A DNA stretch of 64,000 nt. It comes from Torulaspora globosa (Eukaryota > Ascomycota > Saccharomycetes > Saccharomycetales > Saccharomycetaceae). Below are positions 2,473 through 7,085 of the stretch, one piece after another (the stretch's first letter is position 1; every line of letters begins with the position of its first letter). The position numbers and the translations under genes were made by a program. The notes beneath the pieces are model-generated. The model had not been told where the DNA came from, ran no database searches, and was given only the letters and a program-made list of their open reading frames with translations. The stretch is taken from NCBI RefSeq assembly GCF_014133895.1, contig NC_050728.1:248001-312000 (forward strand), written 5' to 3'.

Positions 2473-3624
2473 ATGTCTGCTGTTGATCTCGCCAGGAGTA
2501 TTAAGAAAGCTTGCTCGATCGAGGAAGTGGAGCCGAAAAGGAAGCATGTTAGAGCTTGTATTGTGTATACTTGGGACCACCAATCTGCTACGCAGTTCTT
2601 CTCTATCTTGAAGAGCGTTCCGCTGGCACCGAGTGAAATTCAAGTGTTTAAATGTCTGATTGTGGTTCACAAGGTTGTGCAAGAAGGTCATCCAACTGCG
2701 TTGCGGGAAGCGATTAGGAACACTGAGTGGATTAGGTCGCTTGGCAGGGTTCCAAGCAATGAATACGGGCGCTTGATCCAGAGATACGCCAGCTGTATAT
2801 GCGAGAAACTGATGTTCCAGGCGTCGCACCGGGGATTCGATGGCGGTATGTTTGAATACAAGGAATATACGTCGCTGGCTGTTGTTTCGGATCCTGACCG
2901 CGGATACGACACGCTTTGGAGTCTGATGGATTTGCTGGAGGAGGTTATGGAGACGTGCAAACTAATGCTGGCCTCTATGGGACGGAGACGGAAGGCGGAG
3001 CTGGTTGTTGCGGCGGTAGTGCCGTTGGTGACGGAGTCCTACGGGATATTCAAGTTCTGTACGGCGATGCTGAGAGCTTTAACGCAGGAGATTGACGACC
3101 ACGCAGCATTAGAGCAACTGAGTGAGCGCTATCGTATGCAGCACAGAGATCTTTTTGAGCTTTATGCTGATTGTTCTTCGATCAAGTCACTTACTTCGTT
3201 AATCAGCTTGCCAAAGTTACCACCAGAACCAGAGTCGTTTGATATGACTGACAAGACACCCTTGGAGAGAGCAAAGGTGCTTTCAACAGACCAGAGACTT
3301 GCCATTCATCTTGCTCTTCAATCAATTAATCATAGCCGAGAGCCAGTTTCGTTTTACTCCGTTTCCCAGCTTGCCAATGAGATAGCCGTTTCGGCAGAGC
3401 CCTCAATTCCAGCCATCATCCGGTTGACACATCAAGTAACAACATTGCTACAGCGCAACCCGTCCCCACTCCTCGCCCAAGCTTCTCAACTCTACTTCCA
3501 AGCATTACTTTCCCCCTCCCAACAAGACATCATCAATGCAAATACAAATCTACAAAATCTTTTAATTAACTCTCCCGCTCATATCTTTGATCCACCCACT
3601 CCACAAACCCACACTTCGGCTTGA
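2473..3624 (+). CDS. SLA2: Truncated Sla2/HIP1R-type protein: ANTH domain plus novel tail
   Basis: Intact Sla2 (over 950 residues) links endocytic coats to actin through an ANTH domain, a coiled coil and a C-terminal talin-like domain. Here only the ANTH part is recognisable (residues about 1-256: KKACSIEEVEPKRKHVRAC, VYTWDHQSA, SLGRVPSNEYGRLIQRYAS, SYGIFKF, LFELYADCSS, LPKLP). From residue 257 the frame continues with 127 residues unlike any Sla2 region I know. The last 19 codons lie antisense to the end of the MAT-alpha1 gene. The start is the ATG at 2473, matching the family N-terminus; upstream in-frame codons have no ATG. It could be a functional short paralogue with a full SLA2 elsewhere, or a remnant left by deletion at MAT. 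I am sure of the domain, not of function. Confidence 0.75.
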   Translation: MSAVDLARSIKKACSIEEVEPKRKHVRACIVYTWDHQSATQFFSILKSVPLAPSEIQVFKCLIVVHKVVQEGHPTALREAIRNTEWIRSLGRVPSNEYGRLIQRYASCICEKLMFQASHRGFDGGMFEYKEYTSLAVVSDPDRGYDTLWSLMDLLEEVMETCKLMLASMGRRRKAELVVAAVVPLVTESYGIFKFCTAMLRALTQEIDDHAALEQLSERYRMQHRDLFELYADCSSIKSLTSLISLPKLPPEPESFDMTDKTPLERAKVLSTDQRLAIHLALQSINHSREPVSFYSVSQLANEIAVSAEPSIPAIIRLTHQVTTLLQRNPSPLLAQASQLYFQALLSPSQQDIINANTNLQNLLINSPAHIFDPPTPQTHTSA

Positions 3625-4162
3625 CAAAATTAAACTGCTGCGCAAAAGTGTCCCATATTTCTTGTTGTTCAGGATGTGAATGCCACGCGGATGCAAGCAG
3701 CGGGGATAAAATATTCTGTTTCAGACCATAGCCGAATTGGGAATTGTAAGCCCTAAATGCCATAAAGGAATTAAGCGGCTTTGTGGAGGCACCTTTCCTA
3801 GCGGGCTTTTTATATATGTTATCTAATACATCGTTCGCTATGGAAAATAGTATTTCCTCGCTGTCCCAGGAAATTGGAGAGTCCCATAATGATCCCTTCT
3901 CCGCGGAGCTCTCGGACTGCAACTTCAGCTTCTCTTCCTCAATCTTCCGGAGCAAGGTATTAGGAGGAGAAGGAATCTTAATTGGTCCCAATTTTGCCAT
4001 GAAGGTCTTGGTGCTTTTCTCCTTTGTATAGCCAGATGTATGAGAACAACTCCCTTCCATACACCGAGCTTTTGCTGGTCTACACTGACCAGGTTTCCGT
4101 TTAATCTGGACTTTGAACAGAGGTCTGTTAGCTTTGAACCCACGGAAAGATTTCTCGTGCAT
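3566..4162 (-). CDS. MATALPHA1: Mating-type protein alpha1 (alpha-box transcription activator)
   Basis: Alpha1 works with Mcm1 to switch on alpha-specific genes. The alpha-box is at residues about 128-190, with PLNSFMAFRAYNSQFG, KQNILSPLLASAWHS, EIWDTFAQQFNF and CGFVEWV all matching the family. The N-terminal 100 residues are basic and diverged, as usual. Length is 198 residues against 175 in S. cerevisiae, but the C-terminus stops eight residues after EWV, so the usual tail is missing. The gene lies between a truncated SLA2 and DIC1, the standard MAT position of non-WGD Saccharomycetaceae, which argues for MAT itself rather than a silent cassette. The sequence coding FAQQFNF corresponds to the Y/Z junction and HO cleavage region of S. 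cerevisiae. Confidence 0.93.
   Translation of the reverse strand: MHEKSFRGFKANRPLFKVQIKRKPGQCRPAKARCMEGSCSHTSGYTKEKSTKTFMAKLGPIKIPSPPNTLLRKIEEEKLKLQSESSAEKGSLWDSPISWDSEEILFSIANDVLDNIYKKPARKGASTKPLNSFMAFRAYNSQFGYGLKQNILSPLLASAWHSHPEQQEIWDTFAQQFNFVKPKCGFVEWVDQRYERES
3631..3642 (-). other. Y/Z-junction, HO-site-like sequence inside alpha1
   Basis: On the minus strand this reads CGCAGCAGTTTA, in the context coding for FAQQFNF. The S. cerevisiae HO endonuclease site spans the corresponding codons (CGCAACAGTATA), so the match follows partly from protein conservation. If switching occurs here, the Z side would run leftward into the SLA2-derived tail and the Y-alpha side rightward through alpha1. 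Cleavage is inferred, not shown. Confidence 0.4.
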
Positions 4163-4770
4163 GGCAGTAGTTTGACGATTCTGGTAAGGTAACCAGGACG
4201 GTTTTGACGAACGTTAGGCGTTACTCTTTATACTCGAGAATTAGCCTAAATTAACCCTAGCGCTGTTTCATATTGATTTTTGTCTGCTCTACATAGAGGG
4301 ACATCATTGCGCATAGAGCCTCAAAACAAAACTATGCACCGTACACCATACAGCTGGAGCTCTCATATATCTACTCCAAACACTGTATTGAAACGGGGAG
4401 ATTGCTTAAGGGGAAGTTCGATGACAAAAGCTGTAGTTTTAATCATTGTTGATTATTTTTACAGCGGCTAATAATCTCTCAGTGTGTACCGCCCGAACTC
4501 TATGAAACAACCCTGCTCCTCACCACATATTAAAAACTGACTGGAAAGCAGACGAAGAAAAAAAATTATGTAAAAATGTGAACAAAACTCTGCTATAGCT
4601 CTGCAATCACTTCACAACTATGGGGGAAGAATGATGGAATATTTCAGCTATACTTTGAGCTTCTTTCACAATTAGAAGAGCACTGGCATCTAAACATTTA
4701 TCCTGAGTATCGTTACCATAAAGTCAATAAAATAAGTCGGCAACTGGAGAATAAGCTCGTGTATCAGAAT
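4163..4770. promoter_or_regulatory. Intergenic region upstream of alpha1, expected alpha1/alpha2 divergent promoter
   Basis: About 600 AT-rich bases lie between the alpha1 start and the next frame on the other strand. In most Saccharomycetaceae this stretch is the bidirectional promoter for alpha1 and alpha2. I find no frame that encodes a homeodomain. Several stops interrupt all frames, and one GACATCA motif (4310-4316) resembles only half of an a1/alpha2 operator. Confidence 0.4.
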
Positions 4771-5601
4771 ATGTTAAATCGGATGCGCTTTTTTACAGCA
4801 TCTTCGCTGTCATCGAAATTGGAAGGTATTCTAAGCTCCGCACGTGCTTCTGCTGCGGATACTGCCGCTGATGCCCCTGCTGCTCCAGGTGTTCCCCTTG
4901 CCGCCGATCCGGTCGGTTCCACCTATGCCTACTCTTCGTTGTCCTCTTATCAAGATGGCGTAAACCATCAACTTCCTTCTCGCCAACAAAACCGCCCGGT
5001 GACAAGTAGTGTCGAGCCAGCTACAAATCGACAGCTCGGGCAACAACAAGATCCAGCAAACGTCCCAGACCGCAATCCCTTCAAGACACATCACGACAGA
5101 TGCTTCAGGCCCAAGAGCATGAAGAGTGATACTAAGAGAGTCCGCAAGCAGAGGTGTACGGTAAAGATGCAGGGTCACATGTGTGATCGGATCAAGCTTG
5201 GCTCGGAAAAGAAGGAACGCCGTGCTACCGCGCACCCTTCGAAGAGACTGAAAGTATCCGGAGTTACCAGAACCGGTGGTTGCAGATCACCGAAGAGGGA
5301 TACAAAATCTCTATGTCCTATAACCATTGGACAGAAAGAAGATCCTTGTGAGATGGCATTGGATCCTTCTTTATCGGTTGAGAAGTACGGCTCATTCATT
5401 TCCCAGCATAACCAAGCAACCGGTTCGCCTCTTCGAGGCGACCCGAGTCGTTGCGACGTCTCATCCACCGCTTTGGCGTCTGTGCATGCCAGCGCCAAGA
5501 ACATGAGTTCCCTCGGCTTCGATTCCAGCTCATTGCACTCGAAGCTGCGGTGTATGGTTGGCACCAAGCAGCATCTGGAAGTACAAGATCTTTATGTTTA
5601 A
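4771..5601 (+). CDS. Orphan 276-residue protein in the position expected for MAT alpha2
   Basis: I do not recognise this protein. The ATG at 4771 is the first in frame. Residues about 25-55 are rich in alanine, serine and proline (SSARASAADTAADAPAAPG), residues 60-100 are rich in Q, N and P, and residues 105-170 are strongly basic with nuclear-localisation-like runs (KRVRKQR, SEKKERR, SKRLK). The C-terminal third is serine-rich. There is no WF-x-N-x-R homeodomain helix, HMG box or paired C2H2 finger. It is divergent from alpha1 and just before DIC1, where the alpha2 gene normally lies. Codon use looks plausible for a gene but could be a chance long frame. It might be a highly diverged mating-locus gene, part of an X-type repeat, or spurious. 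Confidence 0.4.
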   Translation: MLNRMRFFTASSLSSKLEGILSSARASAADTAADAPAAPGVPLAADPVGSTYAYSSLSSYQDGVNHQLPSRQQNRPVTSSVEPATNRQLGQQQDPANVPDRNPFKTHHDRCFRPKSMKSDTKRVRKQRCTVKMQGHMCDRIKLGSEKKERRATAHPSKRLKVSGVTRTGGCRSPKRDTKSLCPITIGQKEDPCEMALDPSLSVEKYGSFISQHNQATGSPLRGDPSRCDVSSTALASVHASAKNMSSLGFDSSSLHSKLRCMVGTKQHLEVQDLYV

Positions 5602-6203
5602 CCTGCGCGCAGATCCACTCGCTCGCCCCTCCTATCCTTCTTTTGGAGCCGTTTCGCCGTCAGAAGAGGAAAGCTTCAAAAGGGTTGCGTGGTAGAGAAT
5701 GATACATCTCTCAGCGGTTCAGACCATATCACAACGAGGGGAGATCAATTGCCTGTTGAATCAGATCTGCTACTAATTTACTTGTGTCAAGAGAACTAGT
5801 GGAGTATTGAGCACTCGGGCTATTAAAATGAGTGGAAAGACGCGAGACACATTCGGTTCAAGAGAGGAAAATCATCAGGATAGCTTTCTAACTGCGCCTG
5901 TTTTCCGTCCTCCCTTCTGGATCACAGATCTAATAACAAATTTTGAATTAGGCTTATTATTATTCCACAACCTACCATTATTATCCATGGGTTTTTATTT
6001 CCATGTTACTGTCGCCGGTTTCTTTTTTTTTTTTCCTTGGGTTTTCTCGTTTCAATGATCATCTTCGTCCTCACTGTATAATCCTCAATGCTTCGTGATA
6101 TGTAAAATATAAGCTGAGGCATGCTTTTTTTTTTCCCAATCTCAGGCAATTTGACTTCGAAGGGCGATAGCACATAAACTGCGCTCAGCACAGTTCAAAG
6201 GTC
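5602..6203. other. Intergenic region between the MAT-side orphan frame and DIC1
   Basis: No convincing gene is visible in these 600 bases. Two poly-T tracts (around 6022-6034 and 6124-6134) and AT-rich stretches are typical of a yeast promoter, and the right part presumably drives DIC1. An 83-codon frame at 5807-6058 ends in a phenylalanine run created by a poly-T tract and is not credible. Confidence 0.5.
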
Positions 6204-7085
6204 ATGTCCGGCAAAGTGGCGATGACAGACACCCCAATCAAGTACCCCTGGTGGTATGGCGGTGCGGGTGGCATTTTTGCTTGTATCGTCACCCATCCAC
6301 TTGATCTAGCCAAGGTTCGCCTTCAGACCGCCTCTCCGCCAAAGCCAACGCTTCTGAACATGATTCGAAGAATCTTACAACAGGAGGGACCTCGTGGACT
6401 TTATGCCGGGTTGAGCGCCTCTGTTCTTCGGCAGTGCACCTATACCACCGCGAGATTCGGGTGCTACGACATCATTAAGGAAAATTTAATCCCCCAGAGC
6501 GAGATCAATAATAGTTTGTATCTTTTACCATGTTCAATGTTGAGTGGAGCAATCGGTGGTTTTGTAGGAAATCCAGCAGATGTCGTCAACATCAGGATGC
6601 AAAATGACTCAGCACACGATCCACATCTAAGAAGAGGTTACCGAAATGCATTTGATGGGTTAAACAGTATTGTTAGGGAAGAAGGCTTTTATAAGCTTTT
6701 TACGGGACTGGCGCCAAACTTAATAAGAGGTGTCTTGATGACGGCCAGCCAAGTAGTCTCTTATGATGTATTTAAGCATCAGTTGGCCACAAAGTTCGGC
6801 ATGGATCCAGCCGAGAAAAAGACCCACTTCGCGGCTTCGCTGCTGGCCGGGCTTGTAGCGACAACGGTTTGCTCGCCAGCGGATGTGATGAAAACGCGGA
6901 TCATGAACGCGCAGCAGCACCACGAGAGCGCTGTGAGGGTTCTGTGGAGATCGGTCCAGACCGAAGGCGTTCTCTTTATGTTCAGAGGATGGCTACCAAG
7001 CTTCGCGAGGCTCGGACCTAATACGATTCTGATCTTCCTCGCGGTCGAGCAACTGCGGAAATACAGGGTCGGCATGAGCGGTTAG
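6204..7085 (+). CDS. DIC1: Mitochondrial dicarboxylate carrier
   Basis: Dic1 exchanges malate or succinate for phosphate across the inner mitochondrial membrane. The 293 residues hold three mitochondrial-carrier repeats, each with the P-x-D-x-x-[KR] signature: HPLDLAKVRLQ (about residue 30), NPADVVNIRMQ (about 130) and SPADVMKTRIM (about 230). These contain the six expected membrane helices. It is the orthologue of S. cerevisiae YLR348C and the standard flank of MAT on the side opposite SLA2. The stop codon (7083-7085) is interlocked with the stop of the convergent zinc-cluster gene (7082-7084), so the two 3' UTRs must be antisense to each other's coding sequence. Confidence 0.95.
   Translation: MSGKVAMTDTPIKYPWWYGGAGGIFACIVTHPLDLAKVRLQTASPPKPTLLNMIRRILQQEGPRGLYAGLSASVLRQCTYTTARFGCYDIIKENLIPQSEINNSLYLLPCSMLSGAIGGFVGNPADVVNIRMQNDSAHDPHLRRGYRNAFDGLNSIVREEGFYKLFTGLAPNLIRGVLMTASQVVSYDVFKHQLATKFGMDPAEKKTHFAASLLAGLVATTVCSPADVMKTRIMNAQQHHESAVRVLWRSVQTEGVLFMFRGWLPSFARLGPNTILIFLAVEQLRKYRVGMSG

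Follow-up and report, generated by a model that had tools for sequence, protein, structure and literature searches.

A MATalpha locus without recognisable alpha2 in the three-locus switching yeast Torulaspora globosa, and a proposed two-activator control of cell type

According to the passages on mating type in the accounts of Zygosaccharomyces rouxii and Z. sapae (PMC4065246, PMC4827841), these yeasts have the gene order DIC1-MAT-SLA2, an HO gene, X and Z repeats, and an a2 gene whose HMG box extends across Ya and X; they carry alpha2 and a1 besides alpha1 and a2. Z. parabailii and Z. bailii, as presented in the relevant passages of PMC5433688, have lost a1 and kept a2, with the sequence CGCAGCA at the start of Z. 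The same passages say that loss of a1 had not been seen earlier in the Saccharomycetaceae, and that alpha2 occurs in all Zygosaccharomyces, even without a1, and was probably retained for the repression of a-specific genes. The genus Torulaspora is counted among the three-locus genera in a passage that names no gene loss (PMC6692504). In this study, we describe the mating-type locus of Torulaspora globosa, which lies in a window of 64,000 nucleotides (C2:248001-312000) of a genome of 9.28 Mb in 8 contigs. The locus resembles those of Z. rouxii and Z. sapae in the features of organisation listed above, and it resembles those of Z. parabailii and Z. bailii in the apparent loss of a1, the retention of a2 and the motif at the start of Z. 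However, no alpha2 can be recognised in T. globosa, whereas all four of these species carry the gene. With a probability of roughly 0.75, we consider the locus to be the MATalpha allele of an HO-type three-locus system in which the alpha cassettes have lost alpha2, the a cassettes have lost a1, and cell type is controlled by two activators, alpha1 and a2; the regulatory part of this reading is one that we infer from sequence.

A DNA search with the MAT segment at 2473-7085 of the window found three further cassettes, all near chromosome ends (C2:24630, C1:18225 and C4:18091). The cassette on C2 (HMLalpha, C2:24630-28323) is identical to MAT across window positions 3092-6780, and differences occur only at 6781-6786, the cassette edge. 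The two HMRa cassettes (C1:18225-20858 and C4:18091-20725) match MAT at 3412-3653 (97.5%) and at 4600-6076, and they diverge from it in between. The presence of two HMRa cassettes is explained by the close resemblance between the left end of C1 and that of C4 (C1:543-22308 and C4:356-22175, 95-99.6% identical over three blocks). The Z repeat ends at CGCAGCA (minus strand, 3636-3642), which is the Y/Z edge, and CGCAGCA at the start of Z is described as the HO core site (PMC5433688). In addition, an uninterrupted HO-type open reading frame (ORF) with matches to PF05203 and PF05204 is located at C4:102002-103390. Both the HO endonuclease gene and the HO site at the Y/Z edge are present, a trait that is not common to all Saccharomycetaceae. 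MAT itself is flanked by SLA2 and DIC1, and the X and Z repeats tie it to silent copies of the two alleles, which are located close to chromosome ends. Because of the X/Y/Z structure, the CGCAGCA at the Z edge and the HO-type ORF, we consider this locus to be the MATalpha allele of a three-locus switching system whose donors are one HMLalpha and two HMRa cassettes. The expressed copy is inferred from position to be the one beside SLA2 and DIC1.

A preliminary description of this DNA had placed the locus between an SLA2-derived gene and DIC1 and had pointed to a clear alpha-box gene. The ANTH-domain ORF and the mitochondrial carrier domain agree with the first statement, and the second is upheld by the PF04769 match (Table 1) and by the alpha1 homologues that were found. 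Among the named matches, the alpha1 proteins of Zygosaccharomyces and Zygotorulaspora share 58-61% identity with this protein, and that of a second T. globosa entry (HG537) shares 88%.

Neither MAT, nor the three silent cassettes detected, nor the rest of the genome yielded a recognisable alpha2. On an alpha2 profile, a true alpha2 that had not been used to build it scored 177.7 bits, and the CUP9/TOS8-type paralog scored 41.8 bits. By comparison, the best score was 0.9 bits over the 116 six-frame fragments (at least 15 residues each) of window 3401-6300, and no score in the window or the cassette regions exceeded 5.7 bits. Genome-wide, PF05920 and PF00046 each matched three places, which are the same three homeodomain genes; from their homeodomains, we take these genes to be of the PHO2, YOX1/YHP1 and CUP9/TOS8 types. 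Genome searches with the alpha2 proteins of S. cerevisiae and Z. rouxii returned the CUP9/TOS8-type gene alone and no alpha2, and a degenerate DNA pattern encoding the invariant helix NW[VI]SNRRRKEK had 0 matches in the genome with up to two mismatches allowed. The genome searches score best candidates only. On PF05920, four alpha2 proteins score 32.7-36.2 bits, and matches of 25.1 and 25.5 bits were still reported from the genome; because the known alpha2 scores exceed these weaker reported matches, an overlooked alpha2 is unlikely.

The identity of HMLalpha and MAT over 3092-6780 means that HMLalpha stores no alpha2, and an alpha2 kept in this silent cassette, for which the preliminary description had proposed a check, is therefore ruled out. 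That description had also stated that alpha2 occurs in no frame on either strand between 4163 and 6203, and the six-frame profile search bears this out. Of the two explanations that it offered, control of haploid and diploid fates without alpha2 at MAT fits the gene content, whereas an alpha2 kept elsewhere finds no support, as the homeodomain genes found are those of the three types named above.

Could alpha2 and a1 nevertheless exist in T. globosa and be absent from the assembly, or be masked by introns or a frameshift? The evidence comes from a single genome in which only the best candidates were scored, and the alpha2 gene of Z. parabailii is described as having two introns (PMC5433688). 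However, both alpha cassettes are complete and, over the range given above, identical, and the helix pattern is without a match. Moreover, the loss of the splice site of the second intron in Z. parabailii is stated to leave 57 of 211 residues (PMC5433688); the homeodomain therefore lies beyond the second intron and would still be detectable. The second T. globosa entry, in which alpha1 and a2 are present, and the lack of any match labelled Torulaspora among the alpha2 matches that bear organism names (0 of 38 matches in all) also argue against hidden genes, and we regard this explanation as very improbable. On the alpha2 tree, one alpha2 (P0041) falls outside the Zygosaccharomyces group. This protein could come from another Torulaspora or from Zygotorulaspora, and the loss may therefore not extend throughout the genus.

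Likewise, a1 was not found in either HMRa cassette. A genome search with a1 of S. cerevisiae returned the YOX1/YHP1-type gene alone, and S. cerevisiae a1 itself scores 50.9 bits on PF00046. A candidate relic of a1 in Ya was rejected. The best match, with a score of 51 that 2 of 751 windows reach, falls on the plus strand; on the minus strand, where a1 should lie, the score is 27, which 646 of the 751 windows reach. In Zygosaccharomyces, a1 is described as opposite in strand to a2 (PMC4827841). The Y-alpha segment, the HO locus and the STE2 locus contain no instance of the a1-alpha2 operator pattern, a result that is uninformative for so few sequences.

Both HMRa cassettes contain a full-length a2 of 437 residues that starts in Ya (codons 1-104) and runs into X (the remainder); the copy on C4 is HG536_0D00170. 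Over 183 residues covering the HMG region, this protein shares 67% identity with a2 of Z. rouxii; its identity to a2 of HG537 is 90%, and the homologue search returned at least 12 proteins, its own entry included. The X-encoded codons 105-175 (window 4600-4813) are 94-100% identical in 11 of 11 relatives compared, and in the 10 relatives outside T. globosa the identity is 45-62% for codons 1-104 and 21-40% for codons 176-437. This step in conservation coincides with the Ya/X edge.

The ORF that diverges from alpha1 at MATalpha has the position and direction expected of alpha2, and its 276-280 residues might be taken for a fast-evolving alpha2 that profiles fail to recognise. The a-cassette sequence refutes the ORF at 4759/4771-5601 as alpha2. 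When it is read from the GTG at 4759, 277 of 280 residues are the same as in the a2 protein encoded by the a cassettes, in frame and within the repeat common to these cassettes. Furthermore, Pfam searched up to an E value of 10 gives Jun alone (E 0.22, under the cut-off) and no homeodomain. The chance that the ORF is alpha2 is therefore negligible, and this comparison shows it to be a 3′ remnant of a2 within the X repeat. The HMG box is absent from the ORF, which begins at a2 residue 162, past the HMG region. In S. cerevisiae, the end of alpha2 is left at MATa within a shared repeat. That remnant is likewise the 3′ end of the gene of the other allele, but the arrangement in T. globosa is reversed, with the end of a2 at MATalpha.

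A segment of Y-alpha, on the strand and in the place expected of alpha2, is a candidate for what remains of the gene. One frame with stops reads CLRGSSMTKAVVLIIVDYF...SSPHIKN*LESRRRKK and was aligned to TYRGHRLPKCVTYSLESWF...SGPQIKNWVSNRRRKE of Z. rouxii. Among seven alpha2 proteins, the best score was to Z. rouxii, and 12 of 4000 shuffles reach it; in the comparison with 38 alpha2 proteins, 0 of 150 shuffles reach the score of the segment. The mean score over the 38 proteins (39.6) is above that of all 1508 other strand-windows, although narrowly (next best 38.7), and the maximum score is reached by 3 of the 1508. The alternative is that the resemblance arose by chance and that alpha2 was cleanly deleted without decay in place. 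In the profile test, which is weak, the score is 2.2 bits and 25 of 1000 shuffles reach it, and the score against the seven proteins is also reached in 9 of 1145 windows, although 3 of these 9 are the same segment or its HMLalpha copy. Moreover, two other matches resemble noise: a similarly strong one to S. cerevisiae a1, on the strand where it is not expected, and an out-of-order one to alpha2. Against these observations stand the place, the strand, the preference for Z. rouxii, the two shuffling tests and the ranking among strand-windows, and we believe that chance resemblance is the rather unlikely, yet still appreciable, alternative. An alpha2 homeodomain relic at 4325-4564 is probable, not proven, and the gene probably decayed in place.

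With this gene content, cell type in T. globosa would be determined by activators. In alpha cells, alpha1 would switch on the alpha-specific genes, and in a cells, a2 together with Mcm1 would switch on the a-specific genes; repression by alpha2 would have no part in this logic. Without a1-alpha2, nothing encoded at MAT would mark the a/alpha state, so a zygote would receive no diploid signal from MAT and other cues would be needed. Meiosis and the end of mating would be set by such cues, for example nutrients or pheromone signalling. In the STE2 promoter, the one promoter examined, CATTGTGATTACCGTATTAAGGTAA occurs 182 bases before the ATG; the promoter holds four CATTGT sites in all and no CATGTAA in 880 bases. 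The composite CATTGTGATTACCGTATTAAGGTAA is found at one place in the 278,747 bases examined, counted on both strands. We take CATTGT to be the a2 site and CATGTAA to be the alpha2 half-site, and we assume that the STE2 composite is a2/Mcm1-like. The a-specific genes of Z. rouxii are described as subject to a2 activation plus alpha2 repression (PMC4827841). Under such dual control, the loss of alpha2 would therefore leave a2 activation. The loss of the a1-alpha2 mark would also suit a haplontic life, as stated for T. delbrueckii in a passage of PMC7282813.

Several observations weigh against this proposal. The inverted repeat of the single STE2 promoter has a centre of 7 bases, compared with 6 in an Mcm1 site. 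Pfam reports no HMG domain in a2; PF00505 has seven matches, and a2, which is too divergent for PF00505, is not among them. The AlphaFold model of a2, with a mean predicted local distance difference test (pLDDT) score of 37.4, is too poor for confirmation of the fold. Furthermore, T. delbrueckii has been argued to be mostly diploid (in the relevant passage of PMC3981792), which would make it more difficult to explain why a diploid sensor was lost, and the role of the sensor may be filled by an unrelated factor.

One could also suppose that the CUP9/TOS8-type protein, or another homeodomain protein, took over the role of alpha2, so that cell type would still be marked by a heterodimer or a repressor. 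Of the proteins that remain, the one of CUP9/TOS8 type is most closely related to alpha2. However, its homeodomain retains the WFINVRRR helix that is usual in the family, and its gene is single and unlinked (C4:699914) and alone cannot differ between mating types. We consider such a takeover to be improbable. Returning to control by alpha1 and a2, we give about even odds to the following history. After its ancestors had added alpha2 repression to a2 activation, T. globosa, and perhaps the genus, would have dropped alpha2 and a1 and returned to two activators with HO switching kept; without a ploidy sensor encoded at MAT, mating, switching and meiosis would be separated by nutrient or pheromone cues alone.

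Loss of alpha2 has been described in more distant yeasts. Both a1 and alpha2 have reportedly been lost in Meyerozyma guilliermondii. The mating-type-like (MTL) loci of Candida (Clavispora) lusitaniae and C. auris resemble T. globosa in that alpha1 is present and alpha2 is missing; unlike T. globosa, these species belong to another clade and have one MTL locus, and C. auris has a1 and a2 (passages in PMC6297351). For Debaryomyces hansenii and Scheffersomyces stipitis, alpha1 is listed and alpha2 is not among the genes listed, and for Ascoidea asiatica, alpha1 is listed and alpha2 is given as not found (PMC6692504, in the part that lists these genes). In contrast to T. globosa, the last three species are not three-locus switchers, and a1 and a2 are listed for them in the same part of that source. 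In the literature searched, we came across no account of a loss of alpha2 in Torulaspora or in the Saccharomycetaceae. Within that literature, the double loss of a1 and alpha2 in an HO-type three-locus yeast is new, and we regard it as a variant of a system that is already known. Textbooks present the a1-alpha2 pair as the diploid sensor, and the pair serves as a model of gene-circuit evolution. T. globosa contradicts the expectation that alpha2 is retained, as worded in the relevant passage of PMC5433688: alpha2 was not found, while the species still has alpha1, a2, an HO-type gene and three donor cassettes. Should the proposed logic be true, this species would be a natural test of whether a switching yeast is able to live without the diploid sensor, and of its replacement.

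Table 1. Features of the T. globosa MATalpha locus, in window positions.
Feature	Position	Strand	Remarks
SLA2 ORF, ANTH domain only, 383 residues; MAT flank	2473..3624	+	PF07651, 194.3 bits; best PDB match ANTH domain of Sla2, 3.7e-92; 3′ part within Z repeat
Z repeat common to both HMRa cassettes	3412..3642		Identity on SLA2 side ends after 3642; with HMLalpha, identity starts at 3092
MATalpha1, alpha-box activator, 198 residues	3566..4162	-	PF04769, 38.6 bits (cut-off 28.1); 3′ end extends into Z
Y-alpha, alpha-specific segment	3643..4599		Edges by comparison with HMRa cassettes; alpha1 the sole recognised gene inside
Candidate relic of alpha2 homeodomain, one frame with stops	4325..4564	+	Suggestive; place and strand expected of alpha2
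X repeat common to both HMRa cassettes	4600..6076		99.7% and 99.3%; with HMLalpha, identity extends to 6780
3′ part of MATa2 without HMG box	4771..5601	+	276 residues from first ATG; a2 residues 162-437
DIC1-type mitochondrial carrier, 293 residues	6204..7085	+	PF00153, 209.3 bits; 5′ part within repeat common to HMLalpha

The mitochondrial carrier at 6204-7085 is taken as DIC1, a name given from its position beside MAT. On the other flank, SLA2 is reduced to its ANTH part, and the I/LWEQ domain (PF01608) was not found anywhere in the genome by a search that was not calibrated on a known I/LWEQ gene. Accidents during switching may have eroded the MAT flank and so removed the missing part of SLA2.

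PF05203 has 16 matches in the genome, 12 of them above the cut-off. One is the HO-type ORF, whose adjoining ORF we read as an SSB-type HSP70; another lies within a frame of 1084 residues that we take, judging from its length, to be VMA1/VDE. The remaining matches are presumably WHO-type elements and fragments.

The two genomes named T. globosa are 12% apart in alpha1 and 10% apart in a2, and this divergence suggests that they may represent separate species. Two strains, CBS764 and CBS2947, are given as sequenced in a passage of PMC7282813.

The surroundings of the silent cassettes contain further elements. On C1, the HMRa cassette adjoins a Sir1-domain ORF (PF11603, 62.7 bits; L028:949-2394, minus strand), possibly KOS3, which we count in favour of the proposed switching system. 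Approximately 340 bases from the other side of this cassette lies a tRNA-Val (L027:7808-7883, plus strand). At the left end of C2, near HMLalpha, there are retroelement-like ORFs (L003:4162-7561, minus strand) that appear by eye to be of the Ty3 type.

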